Assembly (NCBI RefSeq): GCF_014873145.1
Contig: NZ_JADBEK010000001.1
Coordinates: 7,874,001 to 7,938,000 of the forward strand
Direction: 5' to 3'
Source of the DNA: Nonomuraea angiospora
GTDB lineage: Bacteria; Actinomycetota; Actinomycetes; Streptosporangiales; Streptosporangiaceae
DNA: 64,000 bases
Below, piece after piece: positions 25,110-42,597 of the stretch. The notes under the pieces were generated by a model, which made no database searches, was not told the DNA's origin, and was given only the letters and a program-made list of their open reading frames with translations. Position numbers and translations under genes: made by a program. Every line of letters begins with the position of its first letter. Position 1 is the first letter of the stretch.

Positions 25110-25152
25110 GTGGAGCCTAGGAGATTCGAACTCCTGACTTCCTGCTTGCAAA
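25110..25152 (-). repeat. Left island attachment site (43-bp tRNA-Ala 3' fragment)
   Basis: These 43 bases are identical to 42524-42566 inside the intact tRNA-Ala gene (3' acceptor arm, T arm and anticodon 3' side). The next base differs, which sets the boundary. It is the displaced 3' end of the target tRNA. Confidence 0.92.
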
Positions 25153-25336
25153 CGGGAGCCAGTCACCACGCCGAGCGGTCTTTCTCCTGGTCAAATGGCA
25201 GATGCCGACTGGTGGTGGGTGCTCGTGTAAGACATCGTTGCTGTACTCCGCTGCTGTACAGCACTTCAATCGTTACGCAGGAGGCGGCACGTACTGGCTG
25301 CCCTGTCCGCCGACTGTGTAGATGGCAGGAGTGCCA

Positions 25337-25582: not shown

Positions 25583-25806
25583 CTATCTACGGTCCGCCGG
25601 GTGATGCTGTCCGTCAACGGGCTGAGTGATCACGACCGTCCCGCCTTCAGACGGGCCGATCATCCCGCTCGGCTGATCGAGACCGTGGTTAGGAACGCGT
25701 GAATGGCAGCCGGGGTACGTCCGTGTGCGGGGACGTTGCTGTCAACGCTGCGGTCACCTCGTCGCCCCGTAAGCTGTGCACGAAGCCAAGCACCTTTCTG
25801 GGCCGG

Positions 25807-26184: not shown

Positions 26185-26451
26185 GCGCTCTAGGATCGCA
26201 CGCCGCCTGCGCGGGCGGAGATGACTCGAACCACCTGCTAATCCGTAGCCAGTTCGAGATCGTCCACGGAGATCTACCGCTGTCGGAAGTGCCTGCTAAG
26301 CGCCTTCTCCGCCTTGATCATCTTCCAGGGCCGTACGCCGGTGTCCGGAGGCGTTGTTAGCGTCGTCGTTAGCAAGATCCGCTGCTGGTGGCTTCCCCGT
26401 GGTGGTGGCATGACACCGACCAAGAGCCGATGACCTGTCCGAAGAGACTCG

Positions 26452-26865
26452 TCAGTCGTCGAAGCTGGCGATCCATTCATTGATGAACTTCGACGCCTCC
26501 TCGGCGGTGACGACATCTCTCCTGGGGGCGGCCCCGAGGCTATCGGCGAGCAGTTCTGGCGATACGGGTTCCCCAGTGACGACCAGGTAGCACGATAGGC
26601 CCTCACTCATTTGACGTGACATCGAGGAGACGAACGCGTCGCGGCGGTACCTGTTGCAGAGCAGCAGCAGGTTCTGCTGTTCCAGCTCTGTTCTCAGCTG
26701 TCGCAGGGCGTCTTCGAAGTCGATCGACGAGTGAACTCTGATCGGCGAAGCGCTGGCGCGAGTCAGTCGGAGCTCGTACGTCTCGCCATCGGTCTGCGTT
26801 GTCACCTGGCAGGGCAGAAGGGATTCGTCCGCCAAGTTGACCAATTCGAGGTCGTGCATGCTCAC
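26452..26865 (-). CDS. Putative immunity protein for the ADP-ribosyltransferase toxin
   Basis: About 137 residues. GTG 26865 overlaps the toxin stop (GTGA); ATG 26859 (MHDLELVNL) is the alternative. The chain is acidic, with no signal peptide (ELVNLADESLLPCQVTTQTD, then LRTELEQQNLLLLCNRYRRD). Size, acidity and position immediately after a toxin gene are those of polymorphic-toxin immunity proteins, which bind and block the toxin in the producer. No Imm family is recognised, so the assignment rests on context. Confidence 0.6.
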   Translation of the reverse strand: MSMHDLELVNLADESLLPCQVTTQTDGETYELRLTRASASPIRVHSSIDFEDALRQLRTELEQQNLLLLCNRYRRDAFVSSMSRQMSEGLSCYLVVTGEPVSPELLADSLGAAPRRDVVTAEEASKFINEWIASFDD

Positions 26866-28013
26866 CTCGGCACGTAGTGGGGGTTCGGAATCCAGACGTC
26901 GTCAGCGCTTCCGTACTTGCCTGGTTTCCAGGCTCCTCTGATCTGCGATGGATCGATCCGCTTGAACACGACCTCCTGCTCGCCTCTGAGGTGCTTGAAG
27001 CCGGGGCCGTACTTTACTTCCATGCCGTTTCCGCGGTCATCGATCTCAAAGATGTATCCCTTGTGTCCGACAGCGAACCCCCTGGCAACGTTCTTGCTCT
27101 TCGAGGCGGCGATCAGGCCGTTCTCGCCGGAGAGGTGCTGTTCGATGCTCATGTCCGGGTCGCGAGCGGTCATACCGTTCTCGAAGATTCCCTCCAGTGT
27201 CCGACCGTCCCCCCGGAACAGCGGTGGCACCTCCTTCCCCTTAAGTTCGAAGCGCTCCCCGAAGCGTGACAGCGTGGCCGTCGGCTTGGGCTTGATCACG
27301 CTCTTGGCCGCCTTGCCCAGGGCCCCGATGGCCTTGGCGGTGCCTGAGGCAGCGCCGCTGGAGCCGGCCGTTGTGACGGCTGCCACGATGTCCGGGAGGA
27401 GACGGCCGAATGCCCGCTCGGGGTTGGAAGCCCAGGTATCCCAGTCCAGCGCCGACTTGGCGAACTCGGCCGGGTTCTGAATGCCGTAGAGCAGGCTTTG
27501 GCCCAGGTCGTTGACGCTGCGTTGCCAGCCCATGAAGTCGACGACCGCCCGGGCGGGAGAGTAGTCGACCACCATCTTGCCCAAGCCGGTCACGCTCTCC
27601 ACCGCGCCCTTGACCGTTTCCGTCATCGGGTTGCCGGAGGTCAGGTTCGGGTCGAAGGCGTCCTGGATCTGCTGGCCGATGCGGTCCCAGAAGCCGCCTG
27701 TCGTGGGCAGGACCGCTCCCGGAGCGAACATCGAGTCGTCGACCGAGATCGGCGGCTTGCCAGCGCCGAACAGCTCCGGCTTGTCCAGCTCCATGCGTTC
27801 CAGAAGCAGCAACCGCTTATTGATCTCCGGGCCCTGGGTTCCAGCCCACGCCGCTACCTGACGCACCGTGTCGGCCGAGGCGGTCGACAGCCAGGCTCCG
27901 CGCAGTAAGTTCCATAACTCCTCGCCGATGGAGTCCAGCGACGATTCAGCCTGGCGCAGTGCGTCCTTCAGGCTGCGGACTCCCTCGGGGACCATGCCCT
28001 CCAACTGGCCCAT
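26862..28013 (-). CDS. WXG-type polymorphic toxin with C-terminal ADP-ribosyltransferase domain
   Basis: 383 residues from ATG 28013. The N-terminal 100 residues are helical (VRSLKDALRQAESSLDSIGE and LWNLLRGAWLSTASADTVRQ), resembling WXG/LXG-type secretion modules, and a middle region is probably a linker or repeat module. From about residue 255 the C-terminus reads as an ADP-ribosyltransferase: VPPLFRGDGRTLEGIFENGM (R-S-E class Arg), GLIAASKSKNVARGFA in the STS position, and E-Q-E at HLRGEQEVVFKRI, the catalytic Glu. It would modify a target of rival cells using NAD+. The STS motif is altered (AAS), so activity is uncertain. It is followed by a putative immunity gene. Confidence 0.75.
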   Translation of the reverse strand: MGQLEGMVPEGVRSLKDALRQAESSLDSIGEELWNLLRGAWLSTASADTVRQVAAWAGTQGPEINKRLLLLERMELDKPELFGAGKPPISVDDSMFAPGAVLPTTGGFWDRIGQQIQDAFDPNLTSGNPMTETVKGAVESVTGLGKMVVDYSPARAVVDFMGWQRSVNDLGQSLLYGIQNPAEFAKSALDWDTWASNPERAFGRLLPDIVAAVTTAGSSGAASGTAKAIGALGKAAKSVIKPKPTATLSRFGERFELKGKEVPPLFRGDGRTLEGIFENGMTARDPDMSIEQHLSGENGLIAASKSKNVARGFAVGHKGYIFEIDDRGNGMEVKYGPGFKHLRGEQEVVFKRIDPSQIRGAWKPGKYGSADDVWIPNPHYVPR

Positions 28014-28017
28014 GGGC

Positions 28018-28257
28018 CTAGCCGGGAGTGTCGGCCGGCGTACGGGCCAACAACGCCCGCAGTTCGTCTACCACACCGGCGCACGCCCCGATCAAAGCTT
28101 GGCGCTGAGAGGTCAGCTCGCCAGCGAAGCGCTGAGCGGCCCGGCCGGTCCAGACGTTCAGCGCCATGAGCTGAATCGCGCGGTCGAGACCGGGGCTGGC
28201 TTGATCGGTGAGTTGCTCGGCTCGGCGTAAGGCCTGTTCCACTTGCTCCCGGGTCAT
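28018..28257 (-). CDS. WXG100-like small protein, secretion partner
   Basis: 79 residues from ATG 28257, placed seven bases after GGAG (reading MTREQVEQALRRAEQLTDQA). The middle shows LMALNVWTGRAAQRFAGELT, in which VWTG is the turn of the WXG100 helical hairpin. WXG100 proteins dimerise and are exported by the type VII (ESX) system. It is directly upstream of the toxin (gap 4 bases), so it is likely its chaperone or targeting partner. No ESX ATPase is in the window. Confidence 0.75.
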   Translation of the reverse strand: MTREQVEQALRRAEQLTDQASPGLDRAIQLMALNVWTGRAAQRFAGELTSQRQALIGACAGVVDELRALLARTPADTPG

Positions 28258-28523
28258 ACGCAACTCCTTCGGATGCACGATCAAGCTCCGGACCGGGGGT
28301 GTAAGGCTATTGGACAGCGCTTCACTTAACGCAGCAACCGAATCGCCGGGATTGGTCTGAAGTGCCAGATATGCGAAGCCCTGCTTTACGAGAGTGGTAG
28401 GAACTTAGCCTGATCGAATGGCCTGAGCTGGTCACTTAATCTTCGCAGCGCGTAATCCGCACAGGATCACCCCGTGCGCATCCCCAATCCGATCGTGAGA
28501 GCAACCCTGTCATCCGATGGCAA

Positions 28524-29691
28524 CACAGGTTGAATGTGTAGTGTCTTCAAGTCGTGACGGATAGCGCTCGGTGCGATACCACCGTGGTGTGCGGTACGGG
28601 TAGAGGGGCGGGTACACGCCCGCAGAGCAGGAGCGGCGCGGGCGTCTACGGCTGCAGGCGGCCGAGTGGTTCGAGGCCGGAGAATCGATCAAGACGGTCG
28701 CCACACGGTTACGGGTCCACGAGCGGTCGGTAACCCGCTGGCGCAAGTCCTGGCACGAGGGCGGGACGCAAGCACTGCTGTCCAAGGGGCCGGTGTCGAA
28801 GGAGAAGCTGTCGGCCCAGCAGTGGGAGCGGCTGGAGACCGGGCTGCGGCGCGGCCCCCCGGCCTGGGGGATACGACGAGAACCAGTGCTGGACCCTGGC
28901 ACGGGTCAAGACGCTGATCGGCCGGCTGTTCCACATCGGCTACACCATCGAGGGAGTGGGCAAGCTGCTGCATCGCCACGGCTGGTCGGTCCAGGTCCCG
29001 GCGCGGCGGGCCTTGGAGCAGGATAAGGAGGCCATCGCCGCCTGGAAGGAGCAGGTGTGGCCGGTGGTGAAAGCACCGCGGCGGGCCTGGGCGCCTACGT
29101 GTGTTTCGAGGACGAGGCCGGACAAGGGCTGAGGCCGCCGAAGGGACGCACCTGGGCGCCGGTCGGGGACAGGCCGGTGGTGACGGTACGCGGCAAGGGC
29201 TCCGGCCGGGTCAACATGGCCGGTGTTGTGGCCTACCGGGACGGTGAGCGGCCGCACCTGTTCTACCGGCTGCATGTCTACTGCGGCCGCAAGGGCGAGC
29301 CCAAGTCGTTCTCTTGGATGGACTACTGGGACCTGATCGTGGCCGTCCACCAGCACCTGGACGCGCCACTGGTCTGGTGCTGGGACAACCTGAATGTGCA
29401 CCTGGTCGGCCAGCTTGTCGAGTTCGCCGCTCAGCCCGCCGATGGGCTGCGCATCGTCCAGTTACGGCTTACGCGCCCGAGTTGAACCCGGTCGAGGGCG
29501 TCTGGGCTCTACTTCGCAGGGCCCTGGCCAACTTCGCCGTCGCCGACCTGCCTGGACTCGTCCGGATCGTCAAACGCAAGCTGAAGAAGATCCAGTACCG
29601 GCCTCATCTGCTCACCGGCTGCCTGGCCCAGACGGGGCTCTTCATCGACACCCCGGCAAACCTATGACCGACTCTACGAATTCAACCTGTG
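28524..29691 (+). mobile_element. Decayed IS630-family insertion sequence
   Basis: The element is bounded by imperfect inverted repeats: CACAGGTTGAAT and following at 28524-28545 pair with 29670-29691, 19 of 22 positions. Its length of 1168 bases fits IS630. No clear TA duplication is seen outside. Its transposase is broken at several points. Confidence 0.75.
28592..29667 (+). pseudogene. IS630 transposase with multiple frameshifts
   Basis: Read across frames, the protein starts YTPAEQERRGRLRLQAAEWF and has an N-terminal helix-turn-helix (GESIKTVATRLRVHERSVTR). A frameshift occurs near 28865, then SVQVPARRALEQDKEAIAAW follows. A second lies near 29075, after which comes the DDE core with VCFEDEAGQGLRPPKGRTWA, CWDNLNVHLVGQL and, after a third shift near 29466, ELNPVEGVWALLRRALANF. 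All three catalytic acids are still readable, but at least three frameshifts and a stop near the start make it inactive. Confidence 0.88.
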
Positions 29692-30040
29692 AAGCGAACC
29701 ATGGCCGCAGGTCCTTCAAGCCGAGGACTGGAAGCCGCGCGGCGGCTTGTTCGATGTTGTCGGAGTCACGTTCGCCTCATCTGTGCCGCCTTGTCGTCAT
29801 CGTCATAACTTCAGTACCAATGGGTGGTTGTGTTTATATTTTGGCCTGGCCGAAATGGTCCATCTAGAGTACTTAATCAAGATGCCTTGCATTTGGTACG
29901 CAGTGCATACACAACACTTCGTTGTGTAATGTTGGTACACGTCAAGACCTATTGCGCTTCATTGGTAGATCTAGAGGGAAACATGGGATAGTCTGCAGGG
30001 CTCTGTTGATCAGAATTCAGGCGTACAGGTAGGGCGCAGG
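29692..30040. promoter_or_regulatory. AT-rich upstream region of the restriction operon with palindrome
   Basis: This gap has clearly lower GC than the surroundings. It carries TACACAAC-N5-GTTGTGTA at 29908-29928, a perfect eight-base inverted repeat that could bind a regulator, 112 bases before hsdR. No specific -35/-10 pair is certain. No gene was identified here. Confidence 0.5.
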
Positions 30041-33000
30041 ATGAGCACGTACATCGAGGAACTGGCGCAGCGGTCGCCGAACTTCGGGTTCTTGCTGCCG
30101 CATGAGCCGATGCTTGTTCTGGACGGCGTGTCTGCGGAGTCGCATGTCTACACCGACCCTGACGCCGCGATGTATAAGGCTCGGCGCTTCACGGAGATTC
30201 TCGCTAAGTTACTGGTCCGGCTCACCAACACTACGGTTCAGCATGACGACCAGAAGGGGCGCATCTACGCGCTGAGCAGGGTAGGGGTTCTGGTTCCGCA
30301 GATCCGTCAGGCTTTCGACCAGGTACGAAGCTCCGGAAACCGGGCCGTTCATACCCACTACGGGGACGTCCGCGCCGCGCTTAATTGCGTCAAGGTCTGC
30401 TTCGAACTGGGAGTTTGGTTCCATCGGGCGCTGAGTCCTAACGACGGGCGCACGTTCGCATTCGTCCCCCCGGCCGATCCAGACACGGCCCAGGCGGCGA
30501 GCGCGGCCGAGCAGGCCCAGCTCGACCAACTCCGCGCCGAACTGGCCGCACATCGCGAGCGGCTCGCGGAAGCACTGGTCACACGGGATGAGAAGGCCAC
30601 CCTGTTGGAGGCCGAAGCACGGGCGCGTGCCGAGGCTCAGCGCGCTCTAGAGCAGGCAACCGCGGACCGTGACCGGCTGCAGGCTCTCGTCGAGCAGTTG
30701 GACACGCGCCTGGCCGAGATGGAGTCGGCGTTCACCGGGAGCCTCAAGAAGATCAAGAAGCCGTCTGCGGTCGAGCGGGACAACCTCATCGCAAGGGCGG
30801 TCCATGCTGCCCGGCTGCCTCGAACCGAGAAGGAAGTACGCGAGGAAGTCGATCAAATGCTCGCCACATCCGGCTGGCTGGTGCAAGACGCGGACAAGGT
30901 GAACCTGTACGTTGGCCAGGGCGTGGCCCTGCGCGAGGCTCACACCGCCAGTGGCCCGGCGGACTACCTGCTCTATGTCGACCGAAAGCTGGTCGGCGTG
31001 GTGGAGGCTAAGCGAGAAGGTACAGCGCTGCGCACGGTCGAGAAGCAGTCGGCCCGCTATGCCGAAGGGCTGACCGCGACCCAGCAAATGCAGGCATGGC
31101 GTATGCCGCTGCCGTTCCGTTACGAGACCACCGCAACCGAGACCCACTTCACCAACACCCTCGACCCCAACCCGCGTTCTCGCGAGGTCTTCTCCTTCCA
31201 TCGGCCCGAGGCACTGGCCCGATGGATGCGTGCAGCCGAGGACGACGAAGCGGCGCCTACCCTCCGTGCCAAGCTTCACTGCGGCCTGCCAGAACTGGCC
31301 GAAAAGGGACTGCGCCCAGCACAAGTGCGCGCCGTACGGGGCCTGGAGGCGTCGCTACGGCGGAGTGAGCCACGATCACTCATCCAGATGGCGACCGGGG
31401 CGGGTAAGACCTACACCGCGGTTACCGCTTCCTACCGGCTGCTCCAGCACGCTGGAGCGTTCCGAATCCTGTTCCTGGTAGACCGGAACACCCTGGGCAA
31501 ACAGGCACACAGCGAGTTCACCAACTACGTCACACCCGACGACGGCCGCAAGTTCAGTGACCTGTTCAACGTACAGCGGCTGGCCGGCGCAGACATGCTC
31601 GATTCGTCCAAGATCGTGATCTCCACGGTCCAGCGGCTATATGCCATGCTCAGGGGCAAGGACGTTCCGCCCGCCGACACCGAGGACGAAGCACTCGACT
31701 CCTACGACATCGACGAGGTGGTAGGAGTTGAGTACAACCCGAAAGTTCCGCCGGAGGCCTTCGACCTCATCATCGTGGACGAGTGCCACCGCTCCATCTA
31801 CGGCCAGTGGCGCGCGGTCCTGGAGTATTTCGACGCTTTTATCGTCGGCCTGACCGCGACCCCGGTCGCACAGACCTTCGGGTTCTTCCACCAGAACTTG
31901 GTTAGCGAGTACACCTACACCGAGGCGGTGGCCGACCGCGTCAACGTCGACTTCAACGTCTACCGAATCCGTACTGAGATCGGGGAGAACGGCGCGGTAA
32001 TCCCGGAGGGGATCGTGGTGCCCAAACTCGACCGCAAGACCCGGGCACAACGATACGAAGAACTGGATGATGACTACCCCTACACCGGGCGCCAGCTCGG
32101 CCGGAAGGTCGTGAGCAGGGGCCAGCTCAAGCTTGTCCTGGAGACTTTCCGTGACAGGCTGTTTACCGAGATCTTCCCACGCCAGCTCGGCCAGCCCGAG
32201 CGGACGTACGTGCCCAAGACGCTTGTCTTCGCTGTGGACGAGAACCACGCCGAGGAGATCGTCGGAATGGTCCGCCAGATCTTCGACCAGGGTAACGAGT
32301 TCTGTCAGAAGATCACGTATACGGCGAAGAATCCCGACAAGCTCATTACGGACTTCCGTAATAGCCCGGAGTTACGGATCGCCGTCACCGTCAACATGAT
32401 CGCCACAGGAACCGACATCAAGCCTTTGGAATGCGTCTTCTTTCTCAACGAGGTGAAGAGCTGGGCGATGTTCGAGCAGATGAAGGGGCGCGGTGCCCGC
32501 AGCATCGACCCGAATGAGTTACATGCAGTCACCCCAGACGTCGCCTCCAAGGACCGGTTTGTGCTGGTCGATGCGGTCGGCGTCACCGATTCCGAGCGCG
32601 TGGACGCGTCCCCGCTGGAGAAGCACACCGAGAAGCAGATCAGCCTGGAGCGGCTGCTGAAGAAGGCCGGCACTGTCAGCCTGTCCCTGGAGGAGACCTC
32701 CACCCTCGCCTCACGCCTCGCCCGCCTCAACCAGCAGATCACTCCCGAGGAGCGCGCTGAGCTGGAACGCCTCGCCGGGCAGCCGATGACTGAGGTGGTG
32801 CGGAGCCTGTCCCGCTGCAACGACCCCAACGTGCTGGACGAGGGCCGGCAGACCGGCAGGGGATGGGAACGCCGCCTGGTCGAGCAGGCTGTCGAACCTC
32901 TGGCCGACCCTGAGTTCCGGCAGAGGCTGCTAGACATCCGCCGCGCTCACGACATCGTGTACGACGAAGTCAACCAGGACAACTTGATCGAAGCACGAGG

Positions 33001-33571
33001 TGTGGATCGAGGCGAGACCGCCGAGCGCATCATCACCTCCTGGGCGGACTACGTCCGGCAGCATCGGGACGAGCTGACCGCCCTTGAGCTGGCCTACCGC
33101 AGCGGGTCGAGCGGACGCGAGGTCTATCGACAGCTCAAAGAACTCTCCTCACAGCTGGCCCGCCCGCCGTACCAGTGGACCCCCGACCGACTCTGGGAGG
33201 CGTATGAGCAGGTCGGCAAGGCCGCCGCTAGCCCGGGAGTACAGCACGGCGTGGCCGACCTTATCCAGCTCATCCGCTTCGAACTCGGCCTCATCGATGG
33301 GCAGCCCCGGTCGCACCGCCGCGTCATTGAGGAGCGATTTGCCAACTGGCGCGCCCGTCAAGAGCAGGCAGGAGTGCGCTTCACCGCTGATCAAATCTGG
33401 TGGCTGGAGCGAATCCGCGATGTGGTCGCCACCAGTGCAGCATTCGACCACAACGATTTGGACCAAGTGCCTTTCACAGAACGCGGCGGCACCGACGGTT
33501 TTCTCCACGCCTTCGGTGACGACGGTGCTGAAGCTATCCTCACCGACCTGAATCGAGACCTCACCGCATGA
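30041..33571 (+). CDS. hsdR: Type I restriction endonuclease, R subunit
   Basis: 1176 residues from ATG 30041. The order is a DUF4145-like N-terminal domain (about 1-130), a coiled coil (about 150-230), and a PD-(D/E)xK nuclease core (near 307-325: ADYLLYVDRKLVGVVEAKRE). The ResIII helicase has motif I MATGAGKTYTAV near 449, II DECH near 580, and III GLTATPVAQ. Later come EQMKGRGARSIDPNE and a C-terminal coupling domain. It cleaves unmethylated DNA after ATP-driven translocation, with the HsdS/HsdM complex. Its stop overlaps hsdS (ATGA). The DUF4145 and coiled-coil front is longer than in classical HsdR. Confidence 0.95.
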   Translation: MSTYIEELAQRSPNFGFLLPHEPMLVLDGVSAESHVYTDPDAAMYKARRFTEILAKLLVRLTNTTVQHDDQKGRIYALSRVGVLVPQIRQAFDQVRSSGNRAVHTHYGDVRAALNCVKVCFELGVWFHRALSPNDGRTFAFVPPADPDTAQAASAAEQAQLDQLRAELAAHRERLAEALVTRDEKATLLEAEARARAEAQRALEQATADRDRLQALVEQLDTRLAEMESAFTGSLKKIKKPSAVERDNLIARAVHAARLPRTEKEVREEVDQMLATSGWLVQDADKVNLYVGQGVALREAHTASGPADYLLYVDRKLVGVVEAKREGTALRTVEKQSARYAEGLTATQQMQAWRMPLPFRYETTATETHFTNTLDPNPRSREVFSFHRPEALARWMRAAEDDEAAPTLRAKLHCGLPELAEKGLRPAQVRAVRGLEASLRRSEPRSLIQMATGAGKTYTAVTASYRLLQHAGAFRILFLVDRNTLGKQAHSEFTNYVTPDDGRKFSDLFNVQRLAGADMLDSSKIVISTVQRLYAMLRGKDVPPADTEDEALDSYDIDEVVGVEYNPKVPPEAFDLIIVDECHRSIYGQWRAVLEYFDAFIVGLTATPVAQTFGFFHQNLVSEYTYTEAVADRVNVDFNVYRIRTEIGENGAVIPEGIVVPKLDRKTRAQRYEELDDDYPYTGRQLGRKVVSRGQLKLVLETFRDRLFTEIFPRQLGQPERTYVPKTLVFAVDENHAEEIVGMVRQIFDQGNEFCQKITYTAKNPDKLITDFRNSPELRIAVTVNMIATGTDIKPLECVFFLNEVKSWAMFEQMKGRGARSIDPNELHAVTPDVASKDRFVLVDAVGVTDSERVDASPLEKHTEKQISLERLLKKAGTVSLSLEETSTLASRLARLNQQITPEERAELERLAGQPMTEVVRSLSRCNDPNVLDEGRQTGRGWERRLVEQAVEPLADPEFRQRLLDIRRAHDIVYDEVNQDNLIEARGVDRGETAERIITSWADYVRQHRDELTALELAYRSGSSGREVYRQLKELSSQLARPPYQWTPDRLWEAYEQVGKAAASPGVQHGVADLIQLIRFELGLIDGQPRSHRRVIEERFANWRARQEQAGVRFTADQIWWLERIRDVVATSAAFDHNDLDQVPFTERGGTDGFLHAFGDDGAEAILTDLNRDLTA

Positions 33572-34956
33572 CCGACCTACCGCCTGGCTGGGTACGAACG
33601 ACGATCGGCGATGTATGTTCCGTGGTATCAGGCGCAACGCCGAAGACCACGGAGCCAAACTATTGGGATGGAAACATTCCCTGGATCACTCCTGATGATC
33701 TGTCGCGGAATCCAGCTAAAATTACCTATCACGGGCGTCGATTCCTTACTCAAGACGGGTTTGATTCCTGTTCGACGCAAATGATTCCGGCAAACGCTGT
33801 CTTGTTTAGCTCTCGAGCGCCCATTGGCTACATAACGATTTCCGGGAATGCGGTATGTACAAACCAGGGATTCAAAACTGCTGTCCCCCCAACCGGAATT
33901 GACTCGAATTATCTTTACTGGTATCTACAGTTCAAGGTGCCCGAAATTCGATCGCGAGCCAGTGGTACAACATTTAAGGAGATTTCGGCTAAGGGGTTCG
34001 CGGACACGGAAATGCTAGTTCCACCTCTTGCTGAGCAGTGGCGCATCGTCAACGCCCTCGAAGACCATCTCTCCCGTCTTGATGTGGGCCTTAGTGGGCT
34101 GGAATCCAATGTACAAAGGGTGGCGAACTGGAGATCGTCGCTCCTGGCAGCTGCCGTATCGGGAAAACTTATCGAGCCGAAATCTCCATGGAAGGTCGCA
34201 TCGATCGGCGATCTGGCGAAGGTAGGGACCGGTGCGACGCCCCTTAGGTCGCGTAAAGATTACTACGATGGTGGGGATATTCCGTGGGTTACCAGTGGTC
34301 TGCTAAATGAACCATTTATAGATCAAGCTGATCAGTTCATCACGTCGGCTGCGCTGAAGGAAACTAATGTCAAGTTGTGGCCGGCCGGAGCATTGCTGGT
34401 TGCGATGTATGGAGAGGGGAAGACGCGGGGCAAGTGTGCAGAGCTCCGGATTCCGGCTACAACTAATCAGGCGTGTGCCGCTATCGTTTTTCGTGAGGAG
34501 AGTGAATGGCGACGGCCTTGGGTCAAGCTTTTCCTTCAAGCTACCTATGAAAAGAATCGGAAGCTCGCATCCGGTGGGGTCCAGCCAAATCTCAATCTTG
34601 GCCTTGTCCGTAGAATTCAAATTCCGCTTCCATCTCGCTCGGAGCAGGATGAGATTCTTGCAGAGATGGATCGTCAATTGACAATCGGAGATTCGCTGGC
34701 GGCAGTGCTGGTTCGATCTCGTCGCAGAGTCGACGTACTGAGGGCGGCTCTCCTTAGAGAGGCATTCACGGGGCGCTTGGTACCCCAGAATCCTGAAGAT
34801 GAGCCAGCGTCTGTGCTGTTGGAACGGATCAAGGCGGAGCGCACGGCCATGCAGACTCCCAAACGTCGCGGTAGCCGTACCGGACCGGAAGCAGCCAGGA
34901 CTAAGAGCAATAGCCGTATGAAATCCGAGAACACGCCGAGACAGGAGACGCTGTGA
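33568..34956 (+). CDS. hsdS: Type I restriction-modification specificity subunit
   Basis: 462 residues. Two target-recognition domains start GWVRTTIGDVCSVVSGATPK and WKVASIGDLAKVGTGATPLR, each with the familiar 'IP W' block. They are separated by helical spacers (PPLAEQWRIVNALEDHLSRL and PSRSEQDEILAEMDRQL), which set the distance between half-sites. It directs both methylation and restriction; recognised sequence not deducible. The TRD sections are noticeably lower in GC than neighbouring genes, suggesting exchange or transfer. It overlaps hsdR (ATGA) and hsdM (GTGA). A Ser/Lys/Arg-rich tail (about 430-462) is unusual. Confidence 0.95.
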   Translation: MTDLPPGWVRTTIGDVCSVVSGATPKTTEPNYWDGNIPWITPDDLSRNPAKITYHGRRFLTQDGFDSCSTQMIPANAVLFSSRAPIGYITISGNAVCTNQGFKTAVPPTGIDSNYLYWYLQFKVPEIRSRASGTTFKEISAKGFADTEMLVPPLAEQWRIVNALEDHLSRLDVGLSGLESNVQRVANWRSSLLAAAVSGKLIEPKSPWKVASIGDLAKVGTGATPLRSRKDYYDGGDIPWVTSGLLNEPFIDQADQFITSAALKETNVKLWPAGALLVAMYGEGKTRGKCAELRIPATTNQACAAIVFREESEWRRPWVKLFLQATYEKNRKLASGGVQPNLNLGLVRRIQIPLPSRSEQDEILAEMDRQLTIGDSLAAVLVRSRRRVDVLRAALLREAFTGRLVPQNPEDEPASVLLERIKAERTAMQTPKRRGSRTGPEAARTKSNSRMKSENTPRQETL

Positions 34957-36458
34957 ACGCGGCGCACACGCGGCGACTGGTCGCGAAGTTGTGGAACTAC
35001 TGCGACGTCCTTCGTGATGACGGTGTCTCCACGATCGACTACGTTGAGCAGCTCACCTACCTGCTGTTCCTGAAGATGGCGCATGAGCGGGCCAACCGGA
35101 GGCTCAACCCGGATACTGCGCTCGCCGGTGTGGCGGCAAGGTGGCAGACGCTGTTCGACGCCGAGGCCCAGGACCTGGAAAAGGTCTACAGAGAGACGCT
35201 GGAGCACCTTGCCAAGCAACCAGGCACCCTCGGGGTGATCTTCCGCAAGGCGCAGAACCGGATCCAGGACCCAGCGAAACTGAAGCGGCTCATCGTGGAC
35301 CTGATCGGCAAGGAGAACTGGTCCAGTCAGGGGGCCGACGTCAAGGGCGACGCCTATGAGGAGCTGCTCGCCAAGGGCGCCGAGGACGTCAAGACCGGCG
35401 CGGGCCAGTACTTCACTCCGCGTGCCCTGATCGCGGCGATGATCGACTGCGTCCAGCCGGGACCGGACGACACGGTCGCAGATCCGGCCTGCGGCACTGG
35501 CGGCTTCCTATTGGCCGCGCACGACTACATCGTCGAGCACCACGGCTTATCGCTCACGCCTGAGCAGCGCGAACGGCTCGCCTCTGGCGCGATCAGCGGG
35601 ATCGAGTTGGTGGACGGCACGGCCAGACTTGCGGCGATGAACATGATCGTGCACGGGATCGGCAGGCCCAATGGAGCCTCCCTGATCGAGGTCCGCGACG
35701 CCTTAGCCGAGCCACCCGCCCGGCACCCAAGCGTGGTGCTGGCCAACCCGCCGTTCGGCAAAAAGTCCTCGATCACAGTGATCGGCGAGGATGGCCGGGC
35801 GGACAGGGAAGCGATCTCATACAACCGACAGGACTTCTGGACCACCACTACCAACAAGCAGCTCAACTTCGTCCAGCACATCGCCTCGATGCTCGCGATT
35901 CCCGGCCGAGCCGCGGTTGTCGTCCCCGACAACGTCTTGTTCGAAGGCGGAGCGGGCGAGACCGTACGCAAGCGCCTGCTCAAGCAGTTCGACGTACACA
36001 CGCTACTGAGGCTGCCGACCGGCATCTTCTACGCCGGCGGGGTCAAGGCCAACGTGCTGTTCTTCGACAAGAAGGAAGCTCGGCCAGGCCAGTCCTGGAC
36101 GGAGAAGCTGTGGGTCTATGACTTCCGTGTTGGCCAGCACTTCACACTCAAGCAGAGCCCGCTGCGCCGCGAGCATCTGGACGACTTCGTGAAGTGCTAC
36201 CGGCCGGGCGAGCCGCGTTCAAATCGGATCGAGACAGAGCGATTCCGCCCGTTCAGCTATGAAGAGCTGATCGCTCGGGACAAGGTCAACCTCGACATCA
36301 CCTGGTTGAAGGATCCGTCCCTGGAGGACGCCGATTCCTTGTTACCTCCTGAGGTAATCGCTCAGGAAGTTGTGGAAGACCTGGAGGCCGCACTCAGCGA
36401 GTTCGCCGCGATCGCTGAGGCTTTGCAGGTGGCGCGAGCGCGGTCCGCTGAGTCGTAA
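34953..36458 (+). CDS. hsdM: Type I restriction-modification DNA N6-adenine methyltransferase
   Basis: 501 residues from GTG 34953. A helical HsdM N-terminal domain (VAKLWNYCDVLRDDGVSTID, then TYLLFLKMAHERANRR) precedes the Rossmann core. This has SAM motif VADPACGTGGFLLAAHDYI near residue 176 and catalytic NPPFG near 264 (N-P-P-F, adenine N6 type). It methylates the HsdS target. The R-S-M gene order is less usual than M-S-R or R-M-S. It is followed 23 bases later by the PDDEXK gene, so this may be one transcript. Confidence 0.96.
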   Translation: MNAAHTRRLVAKLWNYCDVLRDDGVSTIDYVEQLTYLLFLKMAHERANRRLNPDTALAGVAARWQTLFDAEAQDLEKVYRETLEHLAKQPGTLGVIFRKAQNRIQDPAKLKRLIVDLIGKENWSSQGADVKGDAYEELLAKGAEDVKTGAGQYFTPRALIAAMIDCVQPGPDDTVADPACGTGGFLLAAHDYIVEHHGLSLTPEQRERLASGAISGIELVDGTARLAAMNMIVHGIGRPNGASLIEVRDALAEPPARHPSVVLANPPFGKKSSITVIGEDGRADREAISYNRQDFWTTTTNKQLNFVQHIASMLAIPGRAAVVVPDNVLFEGGAGETVRKRLLKQFDVHTLLRLPTGIFYAGGVKANVLFFDKKEARPGQSWTEKLWVYDFRVGQHFTLKQSPLRREHLDDFVKCYRPGEPRSNRIETERFRPFSYEELIARDKVNLDITWLKDPSLEDADSLLPPEVIAQEVVEDLEAALSEFAAIAEALQVARARSAES

Positions 36459-36481
36459 ACCTGCCAGACCAAGGGGAGCGC

Positions 36482-37570
36482 ATGACGCACGAAGTGGGGC
36501 TCTGGCGGATTGGCGCAACCGGCGAACCCGTTCGTGTCACCTCCAGTCCGATTCCGCTGGAATCCCAGTTGGAAACGCTGATCGCTCGGGATCCCGCGAT
36601 CCTGGACGAACCGCTGATGATCATCGGACGGCAGGTCGTCACGGACTTCGGGGGGATCATCGACCTGCTCGGGATCGATGGTGACGGCGTGCTGCACGTC
36701 CTGGAGTTGAAGCGCGGTCGTACGCCCCGCGAAGTCGTGGCCCAGATCCTTGACTACGCTTCCTGGGCCAAGGACCTCAGTCACGATGACGTGCTGACCA
36801 TCTACGCGGAGTCTCAGCAGGAGCCCCCCTTCGAAGTGGCGTTCTCGAACGTGTTCGGCGCCAGCCCACCGGACGAACTCAACGCCGGCCACCGGCTGAC
36901 GATCGTGGCTCATGACGCCGACCCCGCCACGGAGCGCATCGTGAGTTATCTCAGTTCGTTCGCAGTTCCTGTCAACGTCGTGTTCTTCCGGTACTTCGAG
37001 GACGACGATCGCCGGTACCTGGCACGTACGTGGCTGATCGACGAGAGCAAGCCGTCGCGTGCGACCTCGGTCAAACAGCGCAGCGGCACCAAGGAGATGT
37101 GGAACGGCCAGGACTGGTATGTGGCTCTGGGTGAGGACAACGGGCACCGTAGCTGGGACGACGCCCGCAGGTATGGGTTCCTGTCCGCCGGGGGCGGCAC
37201 CTGGTTCTCTCGGACGCTAATCAACCTGCCCATCGGAGCACGTGTCTTCGCCTGCATCCCCAAGACCGGCTACGTCGGCGTAGGCACAGTGATCGGCGAG
37301 GCGCGCCCGGCGAAGGAAGCAGTCCTGAAGATTGACGAGGAGGCTCAGCGCTTCCTGGACCTCGATCTGAAGGCGAGCTACCGACACGAGGGCGATGATC
37401 AGGACGAAACCCTGTCCGAATACATCGTACCCGTTAATTGGACCTACGATGTTCCTCGTGAGGAGGCCGTATGGACACGTGGAATGTTCGCTAATCAAAA
37501 CAGCGCCTGCAAGCTGCGCAGCAAATTCACACTGGAGCGGCTGCTGGAGGCGTTTAACTTGGACGAGTAA
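36482..37570 (+). CDS. PD-(D/E)xK nuclease with EVE/PUA-like C-terminal domain
   Basis: 362 residues from ATG 36482. The N-terminal half (about 1-150) is NucS/DUF91-like: SQLETLIARDPAILDEPLMI, then IDLLGIDGDGVLHVLELKRG, where D-(x)n-E-L-K is the catalytic triad, and VVAQILDYASW follows. The C-terminal part (about 205-300: WYVALGEDNGHRSWDDARRY, then RVFACIPKTGYVGVGTVIGE) resembles EVE or PUA-type modified-base readers. A fused base reader and nuclease suggests cutting or sensing of modified DNA. It lies 23 bases after hsdM, so it probably extends the defence operon. The modification target is inference. Confidence 0.7.
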   Translation: MTHEVGLWRIGATGEPVRVTSSPIPLESQLETLIARDPAILDEPLMIIGRQVVTDFGGIIDLLGIDGDGVLHVLELKRGRTPREVVAQILDYASWAKDLSHDDVLTIYAESQQEPPFEVAFSNVFGASPPDELNAGHRLTIVAHDADPATERIVSYLSSFAVPVNVVFFRYFEDDDRRYLARTWLIDESKPSRATSVKQRSGTKEMWNGQDWYVALGEDNGHRSWDDARRYGFLSAGGGTWFSRTLINLPIGARVFACIPKTGYVGVGTVIGEARPAKEAVLKIDEEAQRFLDLDLKASYRHEGDDQDETLSEYIVPVNWTYDVPREEAVWTRGMFANQNSACKLRSKFTLERLLEAFNLDE

Positions 37571-37827
37571 ACAGAAGAGTGACTGAGTCAGTGATTGGCG
37601 ATACGTACTTGCTATCGGATCCCAGATCCTGTTGACCTCTCCGGAGCTTCTATCGACGCTCACTAGACGGCAGTTACAGTAGGTCGCGGGATCCCGGTTC
37701 ACCTACTCGGAGTGCGACTACGCGTCCCGAGTTTCTATCTTCAGCGAGAACTAGCGCGGCTGGCCATAAAATACGCCCAGCCCGGCGATAGGCCCGAGGA
37801 TCGGGTACGCATGTGGTGGGAGGATAA
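37571..37827. promoter_or_regulatory. Gap between the R-M operon and the coiled-coil gene
   Basis: A 257-base spacer containing GGCTGG-N13-CCAGCC around the AT-rich CATAAAATA (37758-37782), a possible promoter or hairpin. GGGAGGATAA lies directly before the next start at 37828. No gene was seen. Confidence 0.4.
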
Positions 37828-39537
37828 ATGAGTGCTGGACGATATCGGTCGATATTCCACACGCGCCTTACTCCGGCAGACGCTATAGCCACTGCATCTC
37901 GTGAATGGCGCCAGTGGCTGGTGAAGAAAAGCGCGCATAAGAAGATCAATATCGAGGCATACGACGATGGCCAGGCCGTTCTAGGAGACGGCATAGTCCT
38001 CCTTCGCGACACAAGGACGGCTGGAGACGGCACACAGACCAGTAAGTGGCAGTTGCGTGAGCACAAGGACGGTGGTTACTGGCTCAGTTCCCTGATCGTG
38101 CACGCGCCGGGTAAGGTGGCGACTGCCGACGAACGCACCTGGTTCTGGCTCGATGTCGAGCATGTGCGCCCAGACCTGAGTCCGGAAGATACTCAGAGGC
38201 CTTCTCCTGCAGCGCTTCCTGGCCTTGCGCGCCAGTTGCTGGGGACGTTGGACGCTCGGGATCATTGGGCTTATCTGCGTCCGACACCTACGCTCGTTCG
38301 TCCTGATAGGCTGGACGATCTCTTAGAAGTTCTGACCGACGAACAACGGCGACTTCCCGCAATTGTCGCTTCTCCCCATGACCGTATCTCGTTCTCTGCC
38401 TGGAAATCATCAATTGATGGAGTGACCCGCTTCCTGCCGGGTCTAGCCAGCCTTTATCTTCTAGATCCGCTTACAGCGGAGGAGTTCAACCATGCTGTGG
38501 GTACCGCATACGAAGTTCGGGGAGGAGCGGTGCGGACTTATCTTCCCGACCTTGACCTCGCAGTGGAGGAGGACGCAGTTCGGCACCGATTCTTAACTGG
38601 TGCTCGAATCGAGGCTGATGCCAAGAGATCGGCGCAGTTGATCACTGCTTTGCCTCGGCAACTGGCGGCGGATGGGCGTTTGCCTGGCCCGCTAAACAAG
38701 CTGACGCGGACAACCGCGGTTTCGCCCCCGGCTAGTCCGAGACCTGTGTCGCCTCCGTCTGCGACATCATCTTCTGACTTCGCGCGCCTCATCGAAGAGA
38801 ATGTGAAGCTGCTTGCAGAGAATGTCGAGTTGAATGACCTGCTCGATCTCGCCGGATACGAGGAGCAGAAGGTCCGCGAGGACGCGGCCAATCTCCAGGA
38901 TGGACTCCTCGACACGGCGGCAGAGTTGGAAGTGGCAAATCAGAAGATCGCCGAACTAACAGACTTGGTTCGGACACTGCGGCGCAGGCTGACCTCTGCA
39001 GGGCGCGCAGCCGAGGCTTATCTCCCGGCCGAGGTTCCGACGGTGCTTCCGACACAGTTGCCGGAAGTGCTCGAACGGCTCGAAGAACTCGATCGTGTCG
39101 AGTTCACCGGCGAAATCGACTATGTGTGGAAATTGCAGGAGAAGGCGCAATCGTCGACGTGGGCGCAGACGGCCTGGCAGGTGCTGCTGGCTTTACAGGA
39201 CTACGCTGAGGCAGTTTCTAAAGGCGAGTTCAACGGCGACTTTCGCCGCTGGTGCACAGAGCCTGTCCCCGGTGCTGCCGCTATCTCCGCGGGAAAGGTG
39301 AAGCCGGACGAATCGGATACTGTTCACACTAATGCCAGACTGAGCCGACTGCGACTGCTGCCCGTACCACCAGAGGTCGACCCATCCGGTCACGCCTACA
39401 TGTGGTCCCACATCCGGATCGGTAGCGGGGCTGGGATGAGCGCCCCGAGGATGCATTACTTCGACGACGTCCGGAACACGGGCAAGATCTACATCGGCTA
39501 CCTCGGTCCTCACTTGCCCGTAAAGTCGACCAACTGA
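37828..39537 (+). CDS. Large coiled-coil protein of unknown function in the defence locus
   Basis: 569 residues from ATG 37828, just after GGGAGGATAA. The N-terminal 120 residues are globular (SREWRQWLVKKSAHKKINIE, then WQLREHKDGGYWLSSLIVHA). A middle region (about 310-395) is a coiled coil (LIEENVKLLAENVELNDLLD). The C-terminus, about residues 520-569, is distinct: MWSHIRIGSGAGMSAPRMHY followed by FDDVRNTGKIYIGYLGPHLP, as found at the ends of some uncharacterised phage-defence-island proteins. Function is unknown. Its own promoter region separates it from the restriction operon. I do not claim a nuclease; no catalytic motif is visible. Confidence 0.65.
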   Translation: MSAGRYRSIFHTRLTPADAIATASREWRQWLVKKSAHKKINIEAYDDGQAVLGDGIVLLRDTRTAGDGTQTSKWQLREHKDGGYWLSSLIVHAPGKVATADERTWFWLDVEHVRPDLSPEDTQRPSPAALPGLARQLLGTLDARDHWAYLRPTPTLVRPDRLDDLLEVLTDEQRRLPAIVASPHDRISFSAWKSSIDGVTRFLPGLASLYLLDPLTAEEFNHAVGTAYEVRGGAVRTYLPDLDLAVEEDAVRHRFLTGARIEADAKRSAQLITALPRQLAADGRLPGPLNKLTRTTAVSPPASPRPVSPPSATSSSDFARLIEENVKLLAENVELNDLLDLAGYEEQKVREDAANLQDGLLDTAAELEVANQKIAELTDLVRTLRRRLTSAGRAAEAYLPAEVPTVLPTQLPEVLERLEELDRVEFTGEIDYVWKLQEKAQSSTWAQTAWQVLLALQDYAEAVSKGEFNGDFRRWCTEPVPGAAAISAGKVKPDESDTVHTNARLSRLRLLPVPPEVDPSGHAYMWSHIRIGSGAGMSAPRMHYFDDVRNTGKIYIGYLGPHLPVKSTN

Positions 39538-39939
39538 AACCATCTGCTGATACACGTCCACGACCAGCCAAACAAGCCCAGTGTGCGTGGGTAGATTTGG
39601 AAGTTCGCAACACCAAGGAGACCAGAACTCGGCGGTGTGGAACCGTAGTTACTCGTTGGCAAGTGGATCCGGAGCGCAGGGCCGCCAGGCCCGAGCACCG
39701 GAAGCCGCGCGGCAGCCGATCGCCCCAGCCCGAGATGTGAGTACCCAAGTGAGCGATCGTCACGACCTGATTTTGGGATTCCTGGGAGGCTTCTGGGGCG
39801 CGGGGCGGTGCGTGCCCGGACCGGCCGAAGAGCCGCAGCCGGGCACGCTTGCCGGCATCGCGCCCGGCGGGCCGCGCAGCGGGCCGCCCTTGATGACGTA
39901 CAGATAATTGGCTTTCTGATCTCGGGGCTGACCTGTGTC
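39538..39939. other. Gap before the IS481-type element
   Basis: No supportable gene. A minus-strand frame reads ANYLYVIKGG, reminiscent of a transposase, but the surroundings do not fit. The 15-base ATCTCGGGGCTGACC at 39919-39933 recurs at 41934 on the other side of the insertion sequence. Confidence 0.4.
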
Positions 39940-41905
39940 CTGTCCCGGGACATGCTTGACACGTCGATCCCAAGACATCGGTGACAGGTGCTGTTTTCGG
40001 CCAGTCTGGCGTGCGTCGTTGCGACGTCGCGCGTCGGGAGGCCGGGATTGGCCCTGGTGGATATGTCGGTTGTTGAGCAGCGGTATCGGGCTGTGCTGGC
40101 GGTGCTGGCCGGCGCTTCGGTGACCGAGGTCGCCCGAGAGGTCGGGGTGGCGCGGCAGACGTTGTCGGGCTGGGTGTCGCGCTATCGGGAGTCGGGTCTG
40201 GGTGGGCTGGTGGATCGCTCGCGGCGGCCGCATTCGTCTCCATCGCAGATGCGGGCGGAGGTGGAGGTGCTGGTGTGTGAGTTGCGGCGGCAGCATCCAC
40301 GGTGGGGTCCGGTCCGGTTGGCGCATGAGGTCGGCCGTCGGGGTGTGGATCCACCGCCGTCGCGGATGGGGGTGTATCGGGCGCTGGTGCGTCATGGGCT
40401 GATCGAGCCGGGGGCGGGGCGGCGTAAGCGGGTCTTCCGTCGCTGGCAGCGTGAAGCGCCGATGGAGTTATGGCAGATGGACATCGTCGGCGGCGTGTTC
40501 TTAGCCGACGGGCGCGAGGTCAAGGTGGTGACCGGCGTTGACGACCACTCGCGGTATTGCGTGATTGCCAAGGCGGTGGTGCGGGCCACCGGCCGGGCGG
40601 TCTGCCTGGCCTTTGTCGAGGCGTTGCGGGCGTTCGGGGCGCCGGGTGAGGTGCTGACGGACAATGGCAAGCAGTTCACCGCGCGGTTCGGGCATGGCGG
40701 TGAGGTGCTGTTCGACCGGATCTGCCGGGACAACGGCATCGTGCACCGGCTCACCCAGCCGCGCTCACCCACCACCACGGGCAAGGTGGAGCGTTTTCAC
40801 CAGAGCATGCGCCGCGAGCTGCTGGATGACGCCGGCCCGTTCGAGGACCTGGCCGCGTTCCAGGCCGCGCTGGACGCCTGGGTCGTGCATTACAACACCG
40901 CCAGACCGCACCAGAGTCTGGACATGGCCGTCCCTGCCGACCGGTTCACGCCGGTGAGTGAGGCCGAGCGGGAGCTTCTGCCGCTGCGCCTGCCGACCAT
41001 CCTGAGCGCCCAATCGGATGCGATGCCTGCCGCAGACGATGCAGCTGCCGACGCCGCTGCTGCGGCGCCGAAGCGCCGGGAAAGCAGCAACGAGGACACG
41101 CAGGTGGCCAGGCGGCCGACGACACCGGCGGCGTCGTGGTCGGGTGGGCCGATCGAGTTCGACCGGGTGGTGCCGGCCAGTGGCAACCTGGGGGTGGCGG
41201 GCAAGCAGTTCTGGCTCGGTCCGGCCCGCGCTGGTCAGGTGATCACTTTCTGGGCGGATGTGAACGTGATTCATCTGCTGGTCGGCGGGGTGCGGCTAAA
41301 AAGCCTGCGCTTGCACCTGTCCACCAACGACCTGGCCCGTCTGTTCGCCGGCGGTGGCCGCCCGGCGGGGCCGTCGCCGCTGCCGCAGGCCGAGAACGAC
41401 GCCGTGGTGGAAGTGGAGCGGACGGTCAACAAGTACGGCCTGGTCAGCCTGGCCGGTCGCTATCTGCTGGCTGCCGAGATTCTGGGCGGGCGCCGGGTCA
41501 CCATCCGGATCGAGGAGAAGACGCTGATGTTCCTCGACCCCGACACCCGGCAGCTGCTGCGGGTCCGGCCAAACCCGCTGATCTGGGCCAAATGCCTGCA
41601 GTTGCGCGGTGCTCGTCCGGCTGGGCCGCCGCCGGTGCCGGAACGGTCGCCGGTCACGGTGCAGCGGCGCGCGAACTCCTTCGGCGTGATCATGGTTACC
41701 CGGCAGACCGTCTCCCTGGGCCGGCTGTATGTCGGCCGGGTCGTCACCGTGCACGTCAGTGACACCACGTTGACCATCGATCTGGACGAGGGGCCGCGCA
41801 CGGTGCACCGCACCACCGACCTTCCGGTCCGCAACGTCAAAGCGCATCGGCCGTACAAGGTCGACCATGTTTCCTAGATCACCTGTCGCTCATGTCGTGG
41901 GACAG
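39940..41905 (+). mobile_element. IS481-family insertion sequence
   Basis: Imperfect terminal inverted repeats frame the element: CTGTCCCGGGACATGCTTG near 39940-39958 and its partner at 41881-41905 share CTGTCCC and GACATG. The transposase occupies nearly all of it. The integrase remnant to the right lacks its N-terminal part, so the insertion may have helped disrupt the island's recombinase. Confidence 0.75.
40048..41877 (+). CDS. IS481-family transposase with long beta-rich C-terminal extension
   Basis: 609 residues from TTG 40048, six bases after GGGAGG; in-frame ATG 40063 is an alternative. A helix-turn-helix front end (VTEVAREVGVARQTLSGWVS) is followed by the DDE core: QMDIVGGVFLADG (Asp), LTDNGKQFTARFG (Asp) and TGKVERFHQSMRREL (Glu). 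Residues about 395-600 add three related beta-rich units (GNLGVAGKQFWLGPARAGQV, YGLVSLAGRYLLAAEILGGR, FGVIMVTRQTVSLGRLYVGR). Standard IS481 enzymes have fewer than 400 residues. The catalytic acids are intact, so it may be active. Confidence 0.88.
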   Translation: MALVDMSVVEQRYRAVLAVLAGASVTEVAREVGVARQTLSGWVSRYRESGLGGLVDRSRRPHSSPSQMRAEVEVLVCELRRQHPRWGPVRLAHEVGRRGVDPPPSRMGVYRALVRHGLIEPGAGRRKRVFRRWQREAPMELWQMDIVGGVFLADGREVKVVTGVDDHSRYCVIAKAVVRATGRAVCLAFVEALRAFGAPGEVLTDNGKQFTARFGHGGEVLFDRICRDNGIVHRLTQPRSPTTTGKVERFHQSMRRELLDDAGPFEDLAAFQAALDAWVVHYNTARPHQSLDMAVPADRFTPVSEAERELLPLRLPTILSAQSDAMPAADDAAADAAAAAPKRRESSNEDTQVARRPTTPAASWSGGPIEFDRVVPASGNLGVAGKQFWLGPARAGQVITFWADVNVIHLLVGGVRLKSLRLHLSTNDLARLFAGGGRPAGPSPLPQAENDAVVEVERTVNKYGLVSLAGRYLLAAEILGGRRVTIRIEEKTLMFLDPDTRQLLRVRPNPLIWAKCLQLRGARPAGPPPVPERSPVTVQRRANSFGVIMVTRQTVSLGRLYVGRVVTVHVSDTTLTIDLDEGPRTVHRTTDLPVRNVKAHRPYKVDHVS

Positions 41906-41939
41906 AAACGTCAGGCATCTCATGGGACTAGACATCTCG

Positions 41940-42453
41940 GGGCTGACCGGACTCCAGCGGCGGGACCTCGACCTCGACGCCAGAACGGTTCGTATCGAAC
42001 GCCAGCTGATCCAGATCACCGGCAAGGGCCTCGTCTTCACCGAGCCGAAGTCACACGCGGGCAGGCGAACTGTCGTCATCCCGGACCTGTATCATCGATG
42101 AGCTTCGCGCCCACGTGAAGGACTTCACCCAGGACGGACCGGAAGGCTTGATCTTCGCTGGACCCGACAACGGGGCGCTCCGCAACACCAACTTCAACCG
42201 CCGCGTCTGGGTCAAGGCGCTCGACGACGCGGGCGTGTCGAAGATTCACTTCCACGATCTGCGGCACACCGGCAACACCCTGGCCGCCAGCACGGGCGCG
42301 TCCACCCGAGAGCTGATGACCCGCATGGGACACTCCAGCACCCGGGCCGCGCTCATCTACCAGCACTCCACCGACGAGCGCCAGCGCGAAGTGGCGCGCA
42401 AGCTTGACGCCCTCGCACGCGGCGCACTGGCCAAGAAGCCATCGGGCACGTAA
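41940..42453 (+). pseudogene. Island tyrosine integrase, N-terminally truncated and frameshifted
   Basis: The homology starts at GLTGLQRRDLDLDARTVRIE and follows RQLIQITGKGLVFTEPKSHA; a frameshift near 42098 (after VVIPDL) is followed by HVKDFTQDGPEGLIFAGPDN and the catalytic HFHDLRHTGNTLAAS (HxxR), MTRMGHSSTRAALIYQHST (H, and Tyr of the nucleophile). Only about 175 of an expected 390 residues remain. Its place next to the tRNA attachment site is where such a gene belongs. With this decay the island can probably not excise itself. Confidence 0.85.
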
Positions 42454-42489
42454 CGGGCACGGCCCCAAAACCAGCCCCCGCAAAGATCG

Positions 42490-42516
42490 AAAGCCCAGGC
42501 GGTTGACCTGGGCTTT
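42490..42516. terminator. Perfect stem-loop between integrase remnant and tRNA-Ala
   Basis: AAAGCCCAGG pairs perfectly with CCTGGGCTTT around a seven-base loop (CGGTTGA). It is bidirectional, serving both the integrase side and the tRNA gene, whose 3' end lies nine bases away. Confidence 0.85.
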
Positions 42517-42523
42517 CATATGA

Positions 42524-42566
42524 GTGGAGCCTAGGAGATTCGAACTCCTGACTTCCTGCTTGCAAA
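42524..42566 (-). repeat. Right island attachment site inside tRNA-Ala
   Basis: These 43 bases equal the copy at 25110-25152. They form the 3' half of the intact tRNA-Ala, from the acceptor stem to the anticodon loop, and were supplied by the element, so the tRNA stayed functional. Confidence 0.92.
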
Positions 42567-42597
42567 GCAGGCGCTCTGCCAACTGAGCTAAGGCCCC
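42525..42597 (-). tRNA. tRNA-Ala (anticodon TGC)
   Basis: 73 nucleotides without an encoded CCA. The acceptor stem GGGGCCT pairs with AGGCTCC (one G-U), followed by discriminator A. The D arm has AGCTCAGTTGGCAGAGC, the anticodon stem CCTGC/GCAGG encloses TTTGCAA with anticodon TGC, and the T loop is TTCGAAT. All stems close. It is the integration target of the island: its 3' half is repeated at 25110-25152. The gene is transcribed towards the island. Confidence 0.97.

Follow-up and report, generated by a model that had tools for sequence, protein, structure and literature searches.

The 64,000-nucleotide stretch of Nonomuraea angiospora analysed here (contig NZ_JADBEK010000001.1, positions 7,874,001 to 7,938,000), hereafter the window, carries five genes of the same strand at 30041..39537. 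Three of them, hsdR, hsdS and hsdM, belong to a type I restriction-modification system; the other two are here named g4 and g5. We read the first four as a type I operon in which a single-polypeptide and probably modification-dependent (type IV-like) nuclease is embedded, carried by a tRNA-Ala island, and estimate the probability of this reading at about 0.6. In window positions, the five genes are the following.

30041..33571, + strand: hsdR, type I restriction subunit with a DUF4145-like N-terminus, a coiled coil and the nuclease/helicase part (Pfam ResIII, EcoEI_R_C)
33568..34956, + strand: hsdS, specificity subunit with two target-recognition domains (Pfam Methylase_S, two stretches)
34953..36458, + strand: hsdM, N6-adenine methyltransferase subunit (Pfam N6_Mtase, HsdM_N; NPPF motif)
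36482..37570, + strand: g4, 362 residues, NucS/EndoMS-type PD-(D/E)xK nuclease with a C-terminal EVE/YTH-like (PUA-superfamily) domain (Pfam NucS_C, PADLOC PDC-S11, structure matches)
37828..39537, + strand: g5, 569 residues, with a region of thioredoxin-like (Trx-like) fold, a coiled coil and an NsnC-like C-terminal domain (partial PADLOC matches, structure)

The operon and its fourth gene

The coordinates, overlaps and gaps of the original prediction proved exact on re-check. The hsdR and hsdS genes overlap by 4 bp (ATGA), as do hsdS and hsdM (GTGA), while 23 bases separate hsdM from g4 and 257 bases separate g4 from g5. By eye, a good-looking ribosome-binding sequence precedes the ATG of g4. 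Judged by its sequence, the type I portion of the locus is ordinary, with a two-domain HsdS, an HsdM and an HsdR bearing helicase and nuclease motifs in one operon. HsdR possesses the Walker A and DECH motifs of the motor and the E-x-K motif of the nuclease. The NCBI type I endonuclease model PRK11448 matches its residues 12-1174, including the DUF4145-like N-terminus and the coiled coil, with a score below the model cut-off; the Pfam matches to DUF4145 and HSDR_N are weak and also below their cut-offs. HsdM is matched by the PADLOC model PDLC03026 (E 1.7e-180).

The g4 protein combines two modules. Residues 27-109 match Pfam NucS_C, and the D and E-x-K catalytic residues D61, E75 and K77 are invariant among 47 sequences of the family. 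The catalytic match begins at residue 26-27, opposite NucS residue 126-127. Because this domain starts at about residue 26, g4 is without the N-terminal DNA-binding domain that precedes it in NucS. In its predicted structure, the C-terminal domain resembles EVE domains and m6A (N6-methyladenine)-reading YTH domains and forms a PUA-type barrel. The Pfam EVE profile PF01878 matched neither g4 nor anything else in the whole genome. The original description of a PD-(D/E)xK nuclease fused to an EVE/PUA-like domain thus stands for the nuclease and, at the level of predicted fold, for an EVE/YTH-like second domain, without the backing of the EVE profile itself. The predicted structure supports a nuclease joined to a domain of modified-base-reader fold.

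Several of the YTH structures matched by g4 are RNA complexes, and the protein could accordingly be imagined to act on RNA or to halt the growth of infected cells, its C-terminal domain binding modified RNA. We consider this improbable, as the structures nearest to the catalytic domain are those of the DNA endonucleases NucS and EndoMS.

Over its full length (1-360 of 362, E 1.2e-149), g4 matches the PADLOC family PDC-S11 (PDLC04916), a profile also matched full length by homologues from Kocuria, Deinococcus, Priestia and Halomontanus. At E 0.001 or better, g4 has 3,174 database relatives among 8,000 scored, the two-domain make being uncertain for some of them. The ratio of nonsynonymous to synonymous substitution rates (dN/dS) lies at 0.10-0.18 in all ten pairs formed by five g4 genes of a close clade; these ratios are rough, since dS between the genes is 0.63-1.06, and they indicate that g4 is under purifying selection.

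Association of g4 with type I genes

The linkage of g4 to type I genes was assessed in two genome samples. In the order-level sample, g4 occurs in 14 of 297 genomes (E 1e-40) and in the phylum-level sample the PDC-S11 profile matched in 8 of 396 (E 1e-60), the genome studied here being included in both counts. The neighbourhoods of all 13 other order-level and the 7 other phylum-level loci were fetched, giving 20 other g4 genomes. One of them (locus L131) carries the complete hsdR-hsdS-hsdM-g4 operon with the same 23-base gap before g4 and with identities of 92, 28, 95 and 83% to the genes of the window. A divergent hsdS among otherwise conserved genes means that g4 is not bound to a single recognition sequence. 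In two further loci, L132 and L134, a full-length g4 directly follows a piece that corresponds to the C-terminal 67 or 59 residues of HsdM; the contig of L132 begins about 1.3 kb before that stretch. Such a remnant beside a full-length g4 indicates that the type I genes were lost and g4 was kept. Both genomes carry other N6_Mtase genes, three each. With one more whole operon and two genomes with hsdM remnants, the hsdR-hsdS-hsdM-g4 arrangement goes beyond a neighbourhood formed by chance.

Genuine as it is, the linkage is facultative. No relative of HsdR, HsdS or HsdM was detected by tblastn in the fetched stretches of the other ten order-level loci, two of which (L140, L143) have an internal stop in g4, or of the seven other phylum-level loci; such a negative is weak on short contigs, as for L133, where the sequence stops about 190 bp before g4, for L135, L142, L147 and L149, and likewise for L132 of the two remnant loci. 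Since tblastn with the HsdR, HsdS and HsdM of the window may miss distant type I genes, a Pfam check was added. Among the 20 other g4 genomes, it found Methylase_S no farther than 10 kb from g4 in one (G410) and N6_Mtase in two (G410 and, as a weak match 6 kb away, G065). From the side of HsdM, the order sample gave 38 matches including our own, 30 of which were made into loci (own included), covering 29 of the 37 others. A downstream g4 was found in one of these 29 (G410), though the HsdM of two relatives is 90% and 86% identical to that of the window. Both counts make g4 an optional member of the operon. The position behind hsdM varies in related operons (L163, L166, L167, L174-L179), with a second hsdM in L174, L177 and L178 and, judged by eye from open reading frames (ORFs), a GmrSD-like start, an ATPase and others elsewhere. 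It may be an exchangeable accessory slot. The ORF caller used for neighbouring genes performs crudely on GC-rich sequence; even hsdS escaped it.

Plasmids extend the picture. A g4 homologue is present in 45 of 72,556 plasmid records, from actinomycetes, haloarchaea, Deinococcus, Firmicutes and Gammaproteobacteria. Eleven hand-picked records were inspected, two of them from one Kocuria strain, with incomplete gene tables. Type I genes lie within about 1.3 kb of the homologue in three of the eleven. On the Kocuria plasmid, hsdM-S-R stands divergently 220 bp from it; on the Deinococcus plasmid, the order is a DrmD-like helicase, g4, one small gene of the opposite strand, hsdM and a short hsdS; on the Salinivibrio plasmid, it is hsdS, an annotated anticodon nuclease, a regulator, hsdR, a PDC-S26 gene and the g4 homologue, here 240 residues long and without most of the second domain. 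The best-scoring PADLOC models of HsdM differ: PDLC03026 in the window, PDLC03029 in Kocuria and PDLC03021 in Deinococcus. The simplest reading of these sequences would be an independent joining of g4 homologues to type I genes, taken from eleven hand-picked records and without a statistic.

For another plasmid homologue, the distance to brxL and pglZ is about 1.4 kb and includes an annotated restriction endonuclease; one more stands about 1.9 kb from an N-6 methylase. The remaining six records list no type I or BREX gene within 7 kb; in one of them, a cytosine-5 methyltransferase lies about 2.7 kb from the g4 homologue. On the Salinivibrio plasmid (L189, 5883-6986) and on a Klebsiella plasmid (L190, 5653-6720), the gene immediately ahead of the PDC-S11 homologue codes for a PDC-S26 nuclease, 11 bp and about 180 bp away respectively, and the two may form a two-nuclease pair. 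In L184, the homologue is preceded by a DUF4268 gene, scored by other PDC-S11 models.

The NucS-type catalytic domain and the fact that most g4 copies examined do not adjoin type I genes would also fit a DNA-repair nuclease of the EndoMS line, directed at mismatches or damage and hitchhiking behind hsdM. This is unlikely: the NucS N-terminal domain is absent, the genome holds another NucS-type gene, and g4 homologues elsewhere have BREX, DrmD-like and type I genes among their neighbours. The family also figures in the PADLOC catalogue of defence candidates, whose discovery route is described in PMC12988326.

The neighbouring gene g5 and the tRNA-Ala island

The last of the five genes fared otherwise. 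As originally described, g5 codes for 569 residues with a coiled coil and a distinct C-terminal domain, and its predicted structure has a long helix at 315-390 followed by a separate C-terminal domain. Residues 122-401 match about half of the PADLOC profile HEC-07 (positions 135-408 of 553), and residues 439-567 match the last third of NsnC (positions 211-314 of 316). The relatives of g5 were studied in 78 loci, derived from the best 80 of 130 confirmed stretches; many are close Streptomyces or Kitasatospora relatives, some flanks are short, and two loci (L060 and L064) are halves of one gene.

A single composite defence system of all five genes could be argued from the position of g5 on the same strand 257 bp behind g4, from its partial matches to defence-candidate profiles, and from the McrB-like and McrC-like genes found in 25 and 21 of the 78 loci, respectively. 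That extension is very improbable. By tblastn, none of the 78 loci contains HsdR, HsdS or g4, the operon of L131 is without g5, and third-position GC is 0.63 in g5 against 0.78-0.83 in hsdR, hsdM and g4, though hsdS has 0.54. From these sequence comparisons, g5 is probably an unrelated neighbour and no part of the system, most likely a separately acquired gene. Of the composite system first proposed, g4 is retained as a facultative partner of the type I genes, here, in L131 and on plasmids, and g5 is set aside. The expected co-occurrence of the last two genes with type I operons likewise holds for g4 (one of the 29 other HsdM loci, three of eleven plasmids) and fails for g5.

Streptomyces loci of the kind of L071 (1566-17653) show g5 relatives grouped with McrB/McrC-like genes, an SMC-like ATPase and a 136-residue gene without a Pfam match, the latter two being found together in 17 of the 78 loci. 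The clustering of neighbours left out four loci without a called g5, whereas the McrB and McrC counts took all 78. In L055 (7949-13686), a g5 relative has a HEC-05 (DUF262) gene on one side and, on the other, an OLD-like ATPase accompanied by a separate TOPRIM gene, a loosely Menshen-like arrangement.

All five genes sit on a 17.4-kb island (25110-42566) of the 13.1-Mb genome, delimited and marked by the following features.

25110..25152, no strand: left end repeat of 43 bp, equal to the 3' end of tRNA-Ala (perfect match to 42524-42566, BLAST E 3e-17)
39988..41877, + strand: IS481-like transposase (Pfam rve, rve_3, LZ_Tnp_IS481)
42115..42453, + strand: C-terminal piece of a tyrosine integrase, adjoining the tRNA gene (Pfam Phage_integrase, profile positions 91-171 of 172, an incomplete match)
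42524..42597, - strand: tRNA-Ala(TGC), the integration site (ARAGORN), of which 42524-42566 form the right end repeat

The GC content is 62.5% inside the island, against 69.1% in the left and 71.8% in the right flank. The perfect repeat of the tRNA 3' end, the lower GC and the integrase piece beside the tRNA gene lead us to conclude that the genes ride on an integrated element. Upstream of hsdR, fragments of a transposase-like ORF (IS630-like, by eye) occupy 28500-29667. The island also carries, on the minus strand, a gene (26862-28013) whose product has a C-terminal domain of Scabin-like type (Pfam PF22596) and a small gene (26452-26865) that overlaps it by 4 bases and could be its partner.

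Proposed function and known systems

Following the standard behaviour of the family, HsdM and HsdS would methylate the sites of the host, and HsdR would cut unmethylated invading DNA. The EVE/YTH-like domain of g4 probably recognises a modified base, and the EndoMS-like domain would cut the DNA that bears it, making g4 a putative type IV enzyme that would cleave only DNA with modified bases. Phages whose modified DNA evades the type I enzyme would then be caught by g4, and the two activities would provide complementary layers. Modification dependence, the base recognised, co-transcription and antiviral activity are inferences, the first drawn from the fold.

The nature of the target deserves some attention. 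Were g4 to read m6A, the mark of HsdM, it could police foreign m6A in the wrong context or, together with HsdM, sense damage to or loss of the type I system. We regard this as doubtful. A plain m6A reader would attack host DNA marked by its own HsdM; g4 is 83% identical in an operon whose hsdS is 28% identical, so it is not tuned to one methylated site; and a full-length g4 beside a scrap of hsdM suggests that this HsdM is not needed. On the first of these grounds, the target is more likely to be a cytosine modification, or a base recognised in a strict sequence context.

Within the preferred reading, in which a type I operon harbours a modification-dependent nuclease, a broader evolutionary proposal can be made tentatively. 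In the line of the mismatch endonuclease EndoMS, the N-terminal domain might have been lost and an EVE/YTH-like reader added at the C-terminus, yielding a modification-dependent restriction enzyme that was taken up repeatedly by type I operons as a built-in second layer. This reader may respond to m6A, or to a different base, solely where the context is one that the host leaves unused.

Such an operon would matter because phages evade restriction by modifying their DNA, and a methylation-based restriction system joined to a one-chain reader-nuclease would close this escape. The candidate family PDC-S11 would gain a concrete, testable activity, and the fold of the EndoMS repair nuclease would be linked to restriction.

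The literature provides several points of comparison. PDCs are candidates found through 'guilt-by-embedding' and mostly not validated (PMC12988326, PMC10855318). PDC-S11 itself is mentioned in PMC12813430 and in PMC10855318, where the resistant group included 90% of 10 Pseudomonas aeruginosa strains with PDC-S11, which is a correlation and no more. The window gene matches the full profile and is here the last gene of a type I operon.

The original prediction knew of no established system of this composition; the idea has a precedent in print, and the g4 family is catalogued. EVE and DCD domains were associated with type I restriction-modification and given a likely role against modified DNA by Bell et al. 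2020 (PMC7641849), where a DCD (EVE-like) domain fused to PD-(D/E)xK nucleases is also mentioned. Common to that work and the window are the type I operon with an EVE-superfamily protein and the predicted restriction of both modified and unmodified DNA. The proteins named there are PIN-GNAT-EVE and DCD, however, and the terms 'NucS' and 'DUF91' are absent from its main text. A literature search that lacked most subscription papers found no description of a type I operon that includes a NucS-EVE nuclease.

McrBC branches, CoCoNuTs and type I genes occur in possible common operons (PMC11090510), which unite type IV-type and type I functions as here; those are McrB GTPase systems, whereas g4 is a single nuclease-reader chain. 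The EVE-bearing enzyme VcaM4I restricts DNA with 5-hydroxymethylcytosine (5hmC) and 5-methylcytosine (5mC), and a YTH-McrB fusion binds DNA with N6-methyladenine, there written 6mA (PMC12707154). VcaM4I is an HNH nuclease with an N-terminal EVE domain, unlike g4 with its EndoMS-type PD-(D/E)xK domain and opposite domain order. The mismatch endonuclease EndoMS/NucS shares the catalytic domain and has the N-terminal domain in place of which g4 bears, at its C-terminus, an EVE/YTH-like domain.

On the plasmid pEFER, BREX and BrxU combine a methylation-based system and a modification-dependent nuclease in one locus, and their complementary division of labour was shown experimentally (PMC8565348); the partners there are BREX and a GmrSD-type enzyme, and the window system is known here from sequence. 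Menshen touches only g5, whose middle and C-terminal parts give the partial matches to HEC-07 and to its component NsnC; no obvious Menshen partner stands beside g5 among the listed ORFs. In relation to all of these, the window holds a type IV-like nuclease embedded in a type I operon, a kind of system already known, the EndoMS-type catalytic half of the nuclease being unusual.

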